A program made the translations under genes and the position numbers. Below are positions 2,893 to 11,163 of a stretch of DNA of 25,480 nucleotides, in pieces. Origin of the DNA: a virus; IMG/VR virus record IMGVR_UViG_3300032242_001861, positions 1-25,480 of that record; one strand, written 5' to 3'. The stretch's first letter is position 1. Each line of letters opens with the position of its first letter. The notes beneath the pieces were generated by a model. It had not been told where the DNA came from. It made no database searches and was given only the letters and a program-made list of their open reading frames with translations.

Positions 2893-2969
2893 TGGTGCGC
2901 CCGAAAGGATTTGAACCTCTGACCCTCGGTTTCGTAGACCGATGCTCTATCCGGCTGAGCTACGGGCGC
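2893..2969 (-). tRNA. tRNA-Arg (anticodon ACG)
   Basis: The minus strand folds as a full cloverleaf. The acceptor stem is GCGCCCG/CGGGCGC, and the anticodon stem TCGGT/ACCGA encloses loop CTACGAA, giving anticodon ACG (I34 after editing, reading CGU/CGC/CGA). The T-loop is TTCAAAT. The discriminator A and the 3' CCA (2895-2893) are encoded in the DNA. It is the first of three clustered tRNA genes going left to right. Confidence 0.95.
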
Positions 2970-2973
2970 ATAT

Positions 2974-3048
2974 TGGAGCGGGCGGGGGGAGTCGAACCCC
3001 TCGTCTTCAGCTTGGAAGGCTGTGGCTCTACCGTTGAGCTACGCCCGC
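2974..3048 (-). tRNA. tRNA-Gly (anticodon TCC)
   Basis: The minus-strand cloverleaf has a perfect acceptor stem, GCGGGCG/CGCCCGC, and anticodon loop CTTCCAA giving anticodon TCC (reads GGA/GGG). The CCA is encoded. Two outermost helix pairs are mismatched: A27 with A43 in the anticodon stem and A49 with C65 in the T stem. These could mark relaxed selection or fast evolution, but the loops and tertiary positions look functional. Confidence 0.92.
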
Positions 3049-3056
3049 CTATTGGG

Positions 3057-3134
<78 letters not shown>

Positions 3135-4301: not shown

Positions 4302-4913
4302 ATGATTATCAATCTCAAGGCCTTGAAAGCCGTTGCGCTGTTCTGTTCCAAAGAGGAAACACGCTATTACCTGAAAGGCGTCAATCTACAGTTTCGGTCT
4401 GATCATGTGATCATGGTTGCTACTAATGGGCACTACCTGACGGCTTTGCGTCAGTCCCTGGAAGAGCCGCTCGACAGTCCGATTGCAGATACCATCATCC
4501 CAATCGAATTGATTGACCGTATCAAGCTTTCCAAGCACTTGGACGTTTGCGAGCTTTACGTCGACAAAGGACGGATCACGATTACCTACTGCGGCGCGAC
4601 CTATGCGGACGGGGCGATTGACGCAAGCTTTCCAGACTGGCGCCGTGTTTCCCCGTCCAGCGTGTCGGGCGAAACTGCGCAGTTCGATGCGGCTTATCCC
4701 GCGCTGTTCCTCAAGGCGGCCCGCATGTTCGCAAAGGACGCTCAAATCAGAATAGGGCACAATGGCCTATCGCCTGCGCTGGTTTCCTGGCTCCCAAGTG
4801 AAGCCGGTTTGGACGCTTTCGGCGTGCTCATGCCAATGCGCACAAAGGACCATATGACCGTTCCCCCTATGTGGGCAGGCGTCATTGCGTCCAGCGTCTC
4901 ACAAGCGGCGTGA
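4302..4913 (+). CDS. Truncated DNA polymerase III beta-clamp-like protein
   Basis: This 203-residue protein matches the middle of bacterial sliding clamps. Residues about 18-50 (EETRYYLKGVNLQFRSD..VMVATNGHYLTAL) follow the domain-2 pattern 'etRyyLnGv.le......vATdGhrLa'. Residues about 66-90 (IPIELIDRIKLSK) and 92-118 (ITITYCGATYADGAID..FPDWRRVSP) follow the domain-2 end pattern '.idG.fPdy.rviP'. The length is just over half of a normal clamp (about 366), with the first domain and much of the third missing. The start is supported by AGGGGAA about 10 bases upstream. It may form an unusual ring, load onto host polymerase or act as a decoy; which of these cannot be told from sequence. Confidence 0.7.
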   Translation: MIINLKALKAVALFCSKEETRYYLKGVNLQFRSDHVIMVATNGHYLTALRQSLEEPLDSPIADTIIPIELIDRIKLSKHLDVCELYVDKGRITITYCGATYADGAIDASFPDWRRVSPSSVSGETAQFDAAYPALFLKAARMFAKDAQIRIGHNGLSPALVSWLPSEAGLDAFGVLMPMRTKDHMTVPPMWAGVIASSVSQAA

Positions 4914-5955: not shown

Positions 5956-6291
5956 CTATCTATCCCAGTATCTGTTCTGTCGCCGCTCTTCGCGCATGTG
6001 AGACGGGTCCATCTCATTCGGATCTAAACAAGGCAAGGTCAGCTTTCCGCCGCTTGTTAAGATAACCTTCCAGGTTTTGAGCGTCTTACGGCGCCCGCAG
6101 CTACCAAGGTATTCCTGCCATCGCTCCCAGACCTGAGCCTGAAGCTTCCCATCTTCGCTTTCGGCCTTGTCCCTTGGGTCAATCACAACGACACCAAAGG
6201 GGTTCACCTGAAGCTGCCCTATCAGCTTGTCGTAAAGCGGATCGGTTCGCGCGTCCTTGATGCGCTTTTCGCTCGTGTCCTGTTTCATCAT
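5956..6291 (-). CDS. Hypothetical protein at the end of the replication-initiation island
   Basis: This 111-residue protein starts at the ATG at 6291, overlapping the stop of the replisome-organizer-like gene as ATGA. It has a charged N-terminal helix (KQDTSEKRIKDARTDPLYDK), a strand-rich centre (NPFGVVVIDP) and a WERWQEYLGSCGRRKTLKTW segment. I do not recognise it. The coupling suggests it works with the replication protein, perhaps as an accessory. Confidence 0.65.
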   Translation of the reverse strand: MMKQDTSEKRIKDARTDPLYDKLIGQLQVNPFGVVVIDPRDKAESEDGKLQAQVWERWQEYLGSCGRRKTLKTWKVILTSGGKLTLPCLDPNEMDPSHMREERRQNRYWDR

Positions 6292-6875
6292 TCGAGCCCC
6301 AAGCCCCGTTTCATGCGAGCCAGGTTCTCCGCCCGGCTGATGACCGGCTGGTTTCCCTGGTAGCCCGATTGCTGCTGCTGATAGCCGTTCGGCCTGAATG
6401 GCGTCACGTTGCCCTGTTCGCGAACCCGCCGCATCCAATTGCGCCAGGTCGCATCCCAATCGGCCTTGACGCCTTTCTGCCCTGGAGCCGATCTGGCCCA
6501 GTCCCGAAACTTCTCAAGCTCCACCCCTTCCGCTTGAAACTCCCTCGGCTTCCAATCCTCAGAAAGACGAGCTGCGCGCTGTGCGCGCTTGACGGGTGTG
6601 GGGGTTAAGGAAGGGGGGTGTATAGTATTACTATAGGGGGATGGGGGGAAACCATCAGGGGGAGAGGGGTCCGCGGAATGTCCCGTGACATGTCCCGTGA
6701 CTGTCACGTGACCGGTTGTTTCCTTCGCTCTTTGCCTGATTTTTCTCTCGCGGTCATTCGCGCGGCGCTGGTCTATTAACGATTGTTTTTCGTCCAGATA
6801 GGTCAGAACCAGGCGCACGATTTCTAGCGTGGCCCCGGCTGCTTCCAACTGTTTTGTAAGCTCTGAGAGTGTCAT
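6288..6875 (-). CDS. Replisome-organizer-like replication initiation protein
   Basis: This 195-residue protein has three parts. There is an N-terminal helical segment (residues 1-50), and a flexible P/S/T-rich linker (about 52-100). The third part is a C-terminal block, LSEDWKPREFQ (104-114) followed by KADWDATWRNWMRRV (137-151). The 'W.p........FrdW......K.DWdatWrNWmrr' block is the usual C-terminal signature of phage replication (O-like or helicase-loader-like) proteins. The ATG at 6875 is chosen because GAGG lies 8 bases upstream; a longer in-frame extension has none. Three near-identical 11-base repeats lie within the linker coding sequence (6679-6712), as in phages whose origin lies inside the initiator gene. 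Its role would be to bring host helicase to the phage origin. Confidence 0.65.
   Translation of the reverse strand: MTLSELTKQLEAAGATLEIVRLVLTYLDEKQSLIDQRRANDRERKIRQRAKETTGHVTVTGHVTGHSADPSPPDGFPPSPYSNTIHPPSLTPTPVKRAQRAARLSEDWKPREFQAEGVELEKFRDWARSAPGQKGVKADWDATWRNWMRRVREQGNVTPFRPNGYQQQQSGYQGNQPVISRAENLARMKRGLGLE
6679..6712. repeat. Three 11-base direct repeats inside the replication gene (iteron candidate)
   Basis: TGTCCCGTGAC occurs at 6679-6689 and 6691-6701. A variant, TGTCACGTGAC, follows at 6702-6712 and contains the perfect palindrome GTCACGTGAC. About 45 bases to the left lies the inverted repeat TATAGTATTACTATA (6621-6635), the most AT-rich spot in a GC-rich gene. Repeats plus an adjacent AT-rich element fit an origin, but the repeats also encode GHVT repeats, so protein-level repetition is an alternative. 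Confidence 0.5.
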
Positions 6876-6898: not shown

Positions 6899-6927
6899 TT
6901 GCACGTAAGGAAGACCCCCTGTATATA
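6899..6927 (+). promoter_or_regulatory. Weak rightward promoter candidate for a small RNA
   Basis: TTGCAC (6899-6904), 17 bases, then TATATA (6922-6927). The match to consensus is modest (3 and 4 of 6). It is listed because the spacing is ideal and a strong rightward terminator follows within 90 bases without any rightward gene. Confidence 0.25.
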
Positions 6928-6933
6928 GATGGG

Positions 6934-7016
6934 GTTCCTCCCAGAACGCGCATCCCCTGGCGGGTTAGATGCTTTGAAGGCCCGCAGTGTCCCCCGACAA
7001 GCGGGCCTTCTTTTTT
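6934..7016 (+). ncRNA. Possible small RNA ending at an orphan terminator
   Basis: If transcription starts near 6934 it would yield an RNA of about 83 bases that ends in the terminator at 6976-7016. It would be encoded between two leftward genes (139-base gap). The terminator loop contains TGTCCCCC (6988-6995), which is complementary to the GGGGACA found at several ribosome binding sites of this phage. No expression data exist. The promoter is weak, so this stays a hypothesis. Confidence 0.3.
6976..7016 (+). terminator. Strong rho-independent terminator, rightward
   Basis: GAAGGCCCGC (6976-6985) pairs perfectly with GCGGGCCTTC (7001-7010) around a 15-base loop. TTTTTT follows at 7011-7016, on the plus strand only. 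It lies between leftward genes, and the nearest rightward gene ends 1 kb upstream, so it is oriented against its surroundings. Confidence 0.75.
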
Positions 7017-7509
7017 ACTGTACACCTCCGCGCGCATGGGGCAAGCCGTTTGCTTGCGCGTAACGCTTCAAACCATGCAAGACGCTCGTGTGATCGCACC
7101 CAGACCGGCGGGCTATGTCCGCAATGCTCAGATGGGAGCATTCGCTCGCGACCCGGTGCCAAAAGTAGCGCCTGGCTTCCACGATGTACTTCTGGCGACG
7201 CTTCCCCATCAACATTTTGACTGGCACTTCTGTTTCCCGTGAAACATCCACAAGCACCTGTTGAAAGGTCCGGCGCGTCGTCTCGATCTTCTCCCAAGGA
7301 CACTTGTTCACAACCAGAATGAAATCGCGCTTGGGGTCTATCAGCGGCTTCACCGGAAGCGCATTGTTCACATACAAGACAAAATCAGGAATTTGTGCAG
7401 GTTCTGGCTCTTTCACCGGCTCTTTTGGCTTTGGTGCTGGTCCCTCCCTTAATCTTTTTCTCACCTGTGCATAATGTGTGGATAACTCACGCTCGTAGTC
7501 ACTCAACAT
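7015..7509 (-). CDS. Stand-alone DnaA domain IV protein (DnaA-box reader)
   Basis: In this 164-residue protein, residues about 83-152 match the DNA-binding domain IV of the replication initiator DnaA. The match comprises QQVLVDVSRETEVPVKML, the basic loop GKRRQKYIVEAR (102-113), LSIADIARRSG (127-137) and the signature DHTSVLHG (139-146; DnaA has DHTTVLHA-like). There is no AAA+ ATPase domain. The N-terminal 80 residues have a P/E/K-rich linker (about 24-40) and a short strand region. The start at 7509 overlaps the upstream gene by 11 bases. Expected role: bind DnaA boxes on phage or host DNA, either to direct initiation or to block the host origin or regulate genes. Two perfect boxes lie in its own 5' coding region. 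Confidence 0.8.
   Translation of the reverse strand: MLSDYERELSTHYAQVRKRLREGPAPKPKEPVKEPEPAQIPDFVLYVNNALPVKPLIDPKRDFILVVNKCPWEKIETTRRTFQQVLVDVSRETEVPVKMLMGKRRQKYIVEARRYFWHRVASECSHLSIADIARRSGCDHTSVLHGLKRYAQANGLPHARGGVQ
7466..7485 (-). promoter_or_regulatory. Two tandem consensus DnaA boxes
   Basis: On the minus strand TTATCCACA (7485-7477) is followed after 2 bases by TTATGCACA (7474-7466). Both fit TTATNCACA at all positions and point the same way. They lie in codons about 9-15 of the DnaA-like gene. I found no other perfect box by eye in the window. Confidence 0.8.
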
Positions 7510-7681
7510 GTTTAACTTCCTCTGTTTTTTCTTCTGGCTGCGGCAGGTTGACGCAGGCGTCTAAACCCTTCGCAATGAGGTATTTTACTGCTTCAGTCTC
7601 GCTTTTGAAGCGCTCATTAAACCGAAAATCTTCAATGGCCTGCGCCATTTCGTCACTGAGATTGTACACGCATCGCTTCAT
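7499..7681 (-). CDS. Ribbon-helix-helix-like regulator
   Basis: This 60-residue protein reads MKRCVYNLSDEMAQAIEDF, then a helix with R and E and ETEAVKYLIAKGLDA. The pattern is one short strand plus two helices, as in CopG/Arc-type repressors, which bind DNA as dimers. ATG 7681 is preferred because AGGGG lies 6 bases upstream; an in-frame ATG 8 codons earlier has no such site. It is first in the leftward island and lies next to an imperfect palindrome (7699-7716), so autoregulation and control of the divergent recombination unit are likely. The C-terminal tail (PQPEEKTEEVKHVE) is charged. Confidence 0.65.
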   Translation of the reverse strand: MKRCVYNLSDEMAQAIEDFRFNERFKSETEAVKYLIAKGLDACVNLPQPEEKTEEVKHVE

Positions 7682-7698
7682 GATAGTCCCCTGTTGAA

Positions 7699-7716
7699 TT
7701 GACAATAAATTGTTAA
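7699..7716. promoter_or_regulatory. Imperfect palindrome in divergent promoter region (operator candidate)
   Basis: TTGACAATAAATTGTTAA matches its own reverse complement at 7 of 9 pairs. ATTGACAA occurs here (7698-7705) and again at 7733-7740. The site lies between the ribbon-helix-helix gene and the rightward recombination genes, so it is a natural target for that regulator. Confidence 0.4.
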
Positions 7717-7733
7717 ACCATAACGCAAGTCTA

Positions 7734-7757
7734 TTGACAAGTGGTAATGATGGGCTC
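7734..7757 (+). promoter_or_regulatory. Rightward promoter candidate for the recombination genes
   Basis: A perfect TTGACA lies at 7734-7739, but the bases about 17-18 downstream (CTAATT or TAATTG) match a -10 element poorly. Some promoter is required here because the upstream genes point the other way. An activator-dependent promoter is possible. Confidence 0.3.
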
Positions 7758-9704: not shown

Positions 9705-10186
9705 GTACGATTGTTTTCGTCATTCCAGGAACAGCGCGGGGGAAGCAACGCCCCCGTTTCGCTCGCACAGGACGCGTCTATACGCCCGCGCAGACGGTCA
9801 ACCAAGAGGCGTATATCAAGATGCTGGCGGCAACCGCTATGCGTGGTCTTGCCCCGCTCATAGGCCCATTAGAAGCTACTTTCAGCATAAGCGTGGCAAT
9901 ACCTAAAAGTTTTACGGGGGAGAAGCGAAAACGAATAGAAGAAGGAAAGCTATTTCCTACTTCAAAGCCTGATTTGGACAATGTGGTGAAATTGTTGTGT
10001 GACGCGATGAATGGCGTGGTGTACGGCGATGATATGCAGATTGTCGATCTTTATGTGAGTAAGACATACGCCGTCGCAGGTTCAACAACCGTGATGGTAT
10101 CAATGAAGGGGACAAATGATGGACACGATAGATCCGAAGGTAGCGGGCAAGTGGACAGAGGACCGCATGGAAGCGGTGATGATTGA
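9701..10186 (+). CDS. rusA: RusA-family Holliday junction resolvase
   Basis: From TTG 9701 the protein would have 161 residues, starting MSTIVFVIPGTARGKQRPRF. That is the family N-terminus 'fvipG.p.gK.RpR'. The catalytic region is KPDLDNVVKLLCDAMNGVVYGDD, with the three aspartates expected for RusA (D-L-D and the D in YGDD or DDMQ). RusA cuts four-way junctions so that packaged DNA is free of branches. TTG overlaps the upstream stop as TTGA; a GTG at 9662 would add 13 residues that do not fit the family. The last 23 codons overlap the next gene and look non-conserved. Confidence 0.82.
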   Translation: MSTIVFVIPGTARGKQRPRFARTGRVYTPAQTVNQEAYIKMLAATAMRGLAPLIGPLEATFSISVAIPKSFTGEKRKRIEEGKLFPTSKPDLDNVVKLLCDAMNGVVYGDDMQIVDLYVSKTYAVAGSTTVMVSMKGTNDGHDRSEGSGQVDRGPHGSGDD

Positions 10187-10367
10187 GCTGGGCTCAGAAA
10201 AGGCGAAAGTGAAAAGCTGGTCTCGTCATTACGATGATCTACACAAAAAGTATGAGACGCTTTGTGATGCGCTCTACAAAATTGTTGGGCTTGATGAGTA
10301 CGAGCGTGAGACATGCGTGTGGATTGCAAAGGACGCTTTGAAAGATATTGGGGAGTGGCCGAAATGA
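10119..10367 (+). CDS. Hypothetical, first member of the coiled-coil paralog array
   Basis: The product has 82 residues if the second of two adjacent ATGs (10116, 10119) is used, which gives AGGGG a spacing of 7. It carries a helix with EKAKVKSWSRHYDDLHKKYETLCDALYKI, then CVWIAKDALKDIGEWPK. The end, 'A..AL..I', resembles the ends of the following three proteins (ARTALEG, ARKALEG), so it may be a diverged member. The gene is embedded within the RusA 3' end and coupled to the next gene by ATGA. No function is known. Confidence 0.6.
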   Translation: MDTIDPKVAGKWTEDRMEAVMIELGSEKAKVKSWSRHYDDLHKKYETLCDALYKIVGLDEYERETCVWIAKDALKDIGEWPK

Positions 10368-10588
10368 CAGACAATCTTGTAAAGCGGCTGCGCGGTATGT
10401 GTGGCGACGATGGAATTTTGGCTATCCGCGACATTTACGATCATGATGTTGCAGAGGCCGCCGACCGCATTGAAAAACTGGAGGCGGCGCTGCGGGAGAT
10501 CATTACGCATTGTGAAGTGCCAGAACGGCCAAATGCTAGAGCCTTGAGGCTCATTGCCCGCACAGCACTGGAGGGGGAAGATGACTGA
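10364..10588 (+). CDS. Small coiled-coil protein, paralog A
   Basis: This 74-residue protein starts MTDNLVKRLRGMCGDDGILA and contains AADRIEKLEAALREI and ends ARTALEGEDD. The module 'D(N/D)LVKRLR ... AA(D/E)RI.KLEAALR ... AR.ALEGKD' is common in phages of alphaproteobacteria as remembered, function unknown. The start overlaps the upstream stop as ATGA, and the end overlaps the next start by 8 bases. The short helix around residues 33-50 could be a homo-oligomer coil. Confidence 0.7.
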   Translation: MTDNLVKRLRGMCGDDGILAIRDIYDHDVAEAADRIEKLEAALREIITHCEVPERPNARALRLIARTALEGEDD

Positions 10589-11157
10589 TGATCTTGTGAA
10601 ACGGCTGCGCAGCCCTAATGGGCCATTTAACTGGGAAGATGCTGTTGCAACTTACCTTGAAGCCGCCGAACGCATTCAGAAGCTGGAGGCGGCGCTGCGG
10701 AGCGTTCTCCAGTATCGACTGACAGATGAAGCGTGGGTCAAATTAGGGTTTGATCCTAAAAAAATCCGCGTTGAATTTGATGCTGCCCGCAAAGCACTGG
10801 AGGGGAAAGATGAATAATCGTTATATGGTTATCAGCCCAGACACTCTTGAAGCGATGCGCCGGGCTGGACACGCTGCCAAATTAGAAGTTCGCATCGAGA
10901 AGCTGGAGGCGGGGATAAACGCTTTGGTAAATTGTCAAAGTGCTTTGCCCAGAGCAGCCCTGCGTGAAGCAGCGGCGGATATATTGGATAAAAGAACGTG
11001 GCGCACCGAAGACCAATCGCCGCTTGTTTCACAGAACCACGCATTTAGATTCCGCATCGAGAAGCTGGAGGCGGCGTTGCGGGAGATAGCGGCATTGGGG
11101 TTCTGGGACGGCGACAGCGCGATGAATATTGCCCGCAAAGCACTGGAGGGGAAAGAT
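10460..11157 (+). repeat. Recurrent DNA modules in the coiled-coil paralog array
   Basis: Near-identical segments recur. CTGGAGGCGGCG-type blocks encode the K-L-E-A-A helix (about 10481, 10683, 10904 and 11066). CACTGGAGGGG(A/G)AAGATGA-type blocks, which join a stop to the next start, recur at about 10565, 10794 and 11141. Long identity between neighbouring genes gives substrates for unequal recombination, which could expand or shrink the array. Confidence 0.65.
10581..10817 (+). CDS. Small coiled-coil protein, paralog B
   Basis: This 78-residue protein starts MTDDLVKRLRSPNGPFNWED and contains AAERIQKLEAALRSVLQY and ends ARKALEGKDE. It differs from paralog A in the segment between the two conserved blocks, which suggests duplication followed by divergence. 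GGAGGGGGA precedes the ATG. Start and stop overlap both neighbours by 8 bases, so the whole array would be translated as one coupled unit. Confidence 0.7.
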   Translation: MTDDLVKRLRSPNGPFNWEDAVATYLEAAERIQKLEAALRSVLQYRLTDEAWVKLGFDPKKIRVEFDAARKALEGKDE

Positions 11158-11163
11158 GAGTGA
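10810..11163 (+). CDS. Small coiled-coil protein, paralog C with two coiled-coil modules
   Basis: This 117-residue protein contains EVRIEKLEAGINALVN and, further on, FRIEKLEAALREIAALG, so it carries the conserved helix twice. It ends ARKALEGKDE. The N-terminal MNNRYMVISPDTLEAMRRAG has no match in A or B. This looks like a fusion or internal duplication in the array. It overlaps paralog B by 8 bases, and its stop overlaps the small membrane peptide start by 8. Confidence 0.7.
   Translation: MNNRYMVISPDTLEAMRRAGHAAKLEVRIEKLEAGINALVNCQSALPRAALREAAADILDKRTWRTEDQSPLVSQNHAFRFRIEKLEAALREIAALGFWDGDSAMNIARKALEGKDE

Follow-up and report, generated by a model that had tools for sequence, protein, structure and literature searches.

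The window analysed here covers an entire virus record (25,480 bases). Its minus strand carries a short operon in which a small repressor-like gene, a gene for a protein with domain IV of DnaA, a primosomal-like gene and a small conserved gene follow one another. Among the relatives this order is constant, with a RecE/RecT-type operon diverging from it. The repressor-like gene is kept in relatives, and its stop codon overlaps the start of the domain IV gene. The features of the locus are as follows, in the direction of transcription of the operon.

7682–7740, no strand: intergenic region from which the repressor-like/DnaA-IV operon and the RecE/RecT operon diverge
7499–7681, minus strand: small repressor-like protein upstream (PHROG 4738, transcriptional repressor; synteny)
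7015–7509, minus strand: stand-alone DnaA domain IV protein, 164 aa (PF08299 above cut-off, relatives, structural model)
7444–7500, minus strand: N-terminal helix, residues 4–22, with the peptide motif HYxxVRxRL (alignment and model)
7477–7485, minus strand: DnaA box 1, TTATCCACA (TTATGCACA in L002 and L139; one mismatch in L140)
7466–7474, minus strand: DnaA box 2, TTATGCACA, identical in 18 of 18 aligned sequences
7048–7266, minus strand: DnaA domain IV, residues 82–154 (Pfam, model, fold search)
6899–7016, plus strand: putative oop-like small RNA, conserved in 15 sequences
6288–6875, minus strand: primosomal/DnaT-like protein, starting MTLSEL (PHROG 3992 and 1408, C-terminal match)
5956–6291, minus strand: small conserved protein after the primosomal gene (synteny)

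The original prediction held that the 164-residue protein has the DNA-binding domain of DnaA without the AAA+ ATPase, and profile, fold and contact residues all agree with it. Residues 84–148 match PF08299 (Bac_DnaA_C) with 35.2 bits, above the Pfam cut-off of 31.5. The NCBI model of DnaA (TIGR00362) matches at the C-terminus only, with 24 bits against a cut-off of 343.9, so that the protein does not qualify as full-length DnaA and represents domain IV without the AAA+ part; a profile search of the 164 residues likewise gave no match to AAA+ domain III. The AlphaFold2 model consists of a helix (residues 4–22), a disordered linker and a confidently predicted domain (residues 82–154; pLDDT about 95 over residues 81–150). 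When compared with the PDB using Foldseek, its best eight matches were all DnaA structures with a probability of 1.00, at E-values of 0.006–0.18 for this short domain; the proposed structural check was therefore passed. In an alignment of 36 sequences, R105, R113, S128, D139, H140, T141, V143, L144, and H145 are invariant. By alignment to PDB entry 1J1V, and in our own numbering, R105, R113, D139, H140, T141, and H145 correspond to R399, R407, D433, H434, T435, and H439 of Escherichia coli DnaA, which means that equivalents of the box-contacting residues R399 and D433/H434/T435 are all present and invariant. R399 and T435 are needed for box binding in E. coli (PMC5742627). The N-terminal HYxxVRxRL motif is common to many distant phage DnaA-IV proteins.

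Two perfect DnaA boxes in the same direction, 2 bases apart, had been located at about codons 9–15 of the gene, and they lie exactly there, at 7477–7485 and 7466–7474. Both are on the coding strand of the DnaA-IV gene, separated by a gap of 2 bp (11 bp from start to start), and together they occupy codons 9–15 of the reading frame. The 25,480-base record contains no other perfect TTATNCACA site. Under a first-order Markov model, about 0.02 perfect boxes are expected in 0.9 kb at these loci, so that two adjacent boxes are not a matter of chance; from the codon usage of the phage, the probability that the peptide LSTHYAQ is encoded with both boxes is about 6e-5. Two one-mismatch sites inside the gene (TTGTTCACA at 7304 and 7364) are not conserved among relatives and were set aside.

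The pair is conserved wherever close relatives keep the gene, as the original prediction required. A first search yielded seventeen viral loci with relatives 46–93% identical, all of which have both boxes, at ATG+24 and ATG+35. As one of the seeds of this search was N-terminal, it was repeated with the C-terminal domain alone, which added L139 and L143 (about 42% identical), both with the pair, and L140, in which box 2 is intact and box 1 has one mismatch. Apart from this single altered copy of box 1, the pair is thus found intact, and it lies at exactly the same place in 17 relatives that are about 42–93% identical. A codon alignment of 18 sequences, from which near-duplicates were left out, revealed no synonymous difference at codons 9–15 in 1024 comparisons, while the rate is 0.26 at codons 1–8, 0.30 at codons 16–24, and 0.42 in the rest of the gene. 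No other stretch of seven codons is invariant in these sequences, and the permutation P value for such a run of seven columns is 1.5e-5. Among the sequences with two perfect boxes, the sole residue change is at codon 10 (Ser to Cys in L002 and L139), at the N of the box consensus. The HYxxVRxRL peptide by itself needs no box, since the sister clades of L152 and L159 encode its His-Tyr as CACTAC and have no box at that point.

Beyond the gene itself, the pair comprises every perfect box in the window and in the genomes G001 (35.4 kb), G002 (36.5 kb), G004 (24.3 kb), and G012 (15.2 kb). In G006 and G005, four of the five and two of the three perfect boxes, respectively, lie in the DnaA-IV gene or just upstream of it. 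The two sister clades also have perfect boxes in or beside the gene, but at other positions. In the L152 clade, one perfect box shares bases with a putative −10 element in front of the operon (TTGCGC-17-TATAAG), and the gene itself contains others; L155 has two boxes, one perfect and one with a single mismatch, whose spacing is again 11 bp; and L159 has two boxes inside the gene, 33 bp apart. Two complete phages related through their terminase and recombination genes (MW202753 and MW202825) contain neither a domain IV protein nor the tandem pair. Given the invariant codons, the pair being the sole perfect site, the boxes of the sister clades and the lack of the pair in relatives without the gene, the two boxes are a DNA element that is under selection and tied to the gene.

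These findings on gene and boxes concern a single lineage of uncultured phages. No perfect box was found close to the more distant domain IV genes, nor to those of HTVC203P, HTVC034P, Skadi-4, and MW202496, and we therefore rejected the idea that phage domain IV genes generally have boxes nearby. Tandem pairs, mostly of the form TTATCCACA-GG-TTATCCACA, also occur in many other viral contigs (L019–L137), where the domain IV protein is absent on the stretches examined. We accordingly rejected the pair as an indicator of such proteins and their genes, as 119 of 119 of these loci lack such a gene on the stretches around the pairs, which is what the check covered (its positive control worked). The host was sought through relatives of the TerL protein; those of 69–79% identity come from bins labelled beta- and alphaproteobacteria, Balneolaceae, and Patescibacteria, which gives no single host, and no domain IV gene lies near them on the stretches examined.

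The next gene of the operon had been described as replisome-organizer-like, and the C-terminus of its product (6288–6875, minus strand) does resemble phage primosomal and replication-initiation proteins. A gene of this helicase-loader type follows the DnaA-IV gene in the window and in the relatives, as judged from PHROG similarity, which for the window protein covers the C-terminal part only. The gene is a mosaic with exchangeable N- and C-terminal parts in an otherwise constant order. In the window, the N-terminus is modelled at low confidence (mean pLDDT 58) as a helix followed by a long helix. L002, L007, L011, L012, and L140 combine the same C-terminal region with another N-terminus, which, as scanned in L002, resembles DnaD-like and replication-initiation proteins, and L141 has a further N-terminus with similar matches. 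The box pair is present with either kind of N-terminus (partly in L140). Between the DnaA-IV and DnaD-like genes of L002 (3169–3531), L007, L011, L012, and L140 lies an extra open reading frame whose product weakly resembles Mrr-type nuclease domains.

Between the DnaA-IV and primosomal genes, on the opposite strand, lies a putative small RNA with a convergent promoter and a terminator, the arrangement characteristic of oop. The putative promoter (TTGCAC at 6899–6904, a 17-bp spacer, and TATATA at 6922–6927) retains its −35 and −10 elements in 15 sequences. The terminator stem (6976–6985/7001–7010) pairs along its whole length in 15 sequences and shows compensatory changes, and the T run that follows it (7011–7016) overlaps the stop codon of the DnaA-IV gene. 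No Rfam family matched this RNA.

Elsewhere in the window, the plus-strand gene at 4302–4913 encodes a truncated beta-clamp-like protein whose match to DnaN begins only at about residue 139, in the central domain; its product is probably a phage-encoded partial sliding clamp. A row of small, cross-matching open reading frames at 10116–11163 (plus strand) shares a RIEKLEAALR-like segment and varies in number among relatives. A tRNA cluster at 2893–3134 (minus strand), with one gene each for Arg(acg), Gly(tcc), and Met(cat), adjoins the terminase gene.

Signals of a replication origin were sought around the pair. Its tandem arrangement corresponds to that of the basal unwinding system of bacterial oriC, which also calls for three or more DnaA-trios within 16 bp of a box (PMC8287927), but no trio-like run follows box 2. 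There are two boxes only, and no iteron-like repeats were found in the neighbouring genes, including the DnaD-like ones. No AT-rich element adjoins the boxes; the weakest duplex nearby lies at about 7690–7750, some 210 bp away, and the divergent intergenic region is among the least stable parts of the record. In the window, G005, and G012, cumulative GC skew reaches its minimum no more than about 250 bp from the boxes, whereas in G001, G002, and G006 it does so elsewhere. Where the two coincide, the minimum is also the point at which transcription diverges, and the skew at four-fold sites does not clearly differ between the two sides. Since GC skew is inseparable from gene direction here, it was not counted as evidence for an origin.

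The protein encoded around the boxes is most likely their ligand. Binding would be the likeliest first step, since the domain and its contacts fit the sites and these stay with the gene while shifting within it. In the reading that we favour, to which we give an even chance, the protein binds its own gene and, together with the neighbouring primosomal/DnaT-like protein, marks the origin of the phage in the manner of lambda O. We infer binding by the phage protein, recruitment of the helicase, and origin activity as follows. Domain IV would bind the tandem boxes, which lie on the same face of the helix because they are 11 bp apart; the N-terminal helix or the linker would recruit the primosomal/DnaT- or DnaD-like protein from the next gene; and the recruited protein would load the replicative helicase of the host. 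The phage origin would have its core at the box site, within the gene for its own initiator as in lambda O, and protein bound there would also restrict how much the operon is transcribed. An initiator that represses its own operon combines an origin with autoregulation, and the two are fully compatible.

Autoregulation on its own, in which a DnaA-derived transcription factor binds the pair at the leader or start of its own coding sequence and shuts or road-blocks the early operon with no direct role at the origin, seems rather unlikely but is the most serious of the competing explanations. The L152-clade box over the putative −10 element fits transcription control and counts against the origin reading. 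The gene also lies between repressor-like and replication genes and is followed by the oop-like RNA, which is the place of cII in lambda, and DnaA autoregulates in E. coli (PMC5742627). In the clade of the window, however, the pair is about 200 bp into the transcribed region with no conserved promoter found adjoining it, and the several gene-internal boxes of L155 and L159 look more like origin clusters. We favour an origin over autoregulation alone because such internal clusters occur in several clades, the neighbouring gene is of helicase-loading type, and other repeats are absent. Against the origin stand the small number of boxes, the lack of an AAA+ domain to melt DNA, of trios, and of an AT-rich element beside the boxes, and the distant phage DnaA-IV genes, those of Pelagibacter phages included, that have no perfect box nearby; in addition, the neighbours with a DnaD-like N-terminal domain may recognise DNA themselves.

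As the boxes are perfect general DnaA boxes, full-length DnaA of the host might bind them and stimulate replication or transcription of the phage, as reported near pO of lambda, with the phage protein competing or tuning. Lambda is reported to have DnaA-protected sites downstream of pO (PMC3985674), and at least 119 viral loci have the same tandem pair with no domain IV gene on the stretches examined. We nevertheless consider this improbable, as the boxes are confined to the DnaA-IV gene of the phage, sister clades carry them elsewhere in or beside that gene, the gene-less MW202753 and MW202825 lack them, and no DnaA-trio is available for unwinding of the host type. The original prediction had also suggested a sink that lures host DnaA, which is unlikely in its pure form because there are only two sites and because the boxes of the sister clades lie in or beside the same gene. 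Takeover of the host, with the protein occupying oriC boxes to block host initiation and the pair in its own gene serving feedback control, is very improbable: a domain IV on its own, its contact residues intact, could compete with DnaA, but the gene is embedded in a replication operon. Finally, the boxes could be a by-product of codon choice in an N-terminal motif that is conserved as protein, and HYxxVRxRL is indeed kept in distant relatives without boxes. This explanation is largely refuted by the freely varying codons on both sides of a stretch with no synonymous change in 18 sequences, by the Ser to Cys change precisely at the N position, and by the use of CACTAC for the same two residues in other clades, and it retains the least probability of all.

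A more far-reaching form of the origin reading is a split initiator, in which domain IV provides origin recognition, a separate, exchangeable primosomal protein acts as the loader, and a two-box origin lies in the codons of the initiator. We regard this as possible, at somewhat less than even probability; the absence of trios, the uninformative GC skew, and the DnaD-like N-terminal domain of some neighbours leave it unproven. If the pair is the origin, box recognition and strand opening or helicase loading, which are joined in DnaA, would be separable into exchangeable proteins. DnaA-like phage proteins are scattered through the databases, and here a candidate target is visible by conservation alone, so that function becomes directly testable.

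Phage proteins with domain IV only have been annotated before. The Pelagibacter phages (HTVC203P gp22, HTVC034P gp20, and Skadi), Rhizobium phage RHph_N28_2, and others likewise encode small proteins with a C-terminal domain IV, which in the Pelagibacter phages also lie near genes for a nuclease and a single-strand annealing protein. They share 32–38% identity with the protein described here, over the domain only, and are annotated as replication initiation proteins, for which the literature searched held no test. No description of the target sites or role of a stand-alone phage domain IV was found in the open-access literature, and what appears to be new is a stand-alone domain IV gene that carries its own selected box pair within its coding sequence. 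Bacterial DnaA domain IV (PF08299; E. coli DnaA, PDB 1J1V) has the same fold, helix–turn–helix, box-contact residues, and box consensus, but the phage protein lacks domain I and AAA+ domain III and has, in front of domain IV, a short helix followed by a long, disordered linker rich in Pro and Glu. The basal unwinding system of Bacillus subtilis (DnaA boxes 6 and 7 with DnaA-trios) also has tandem boxes in the same direction, no more than 3 bp apart, whereas in the phage neither DnaA-trios nor an AAA+ initiator were found. The layout matches that of pO/oop in lambda, with ori within gene O (PMC6022878), and with DnaA-protected sites reported downstream of pO (PMC3985674). There, too, origin-like sites lie inside a gene of the replication operon next to a helicase-loader-type neighbour, and oop is a short, terminated, convergent RNA between the gene in the place of cII and the next replication gene. 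The phage differs from lambda O/ori in its DNA-binding domain and in having two DnaA boxes rather than iterons, and its putative RNA, unlike oop, barely overlaps the upstream gene. The phage locus would represent a second, differently built case of the lambda layout, bringing DnaA sites and replication genes together with an oop-like RNA.
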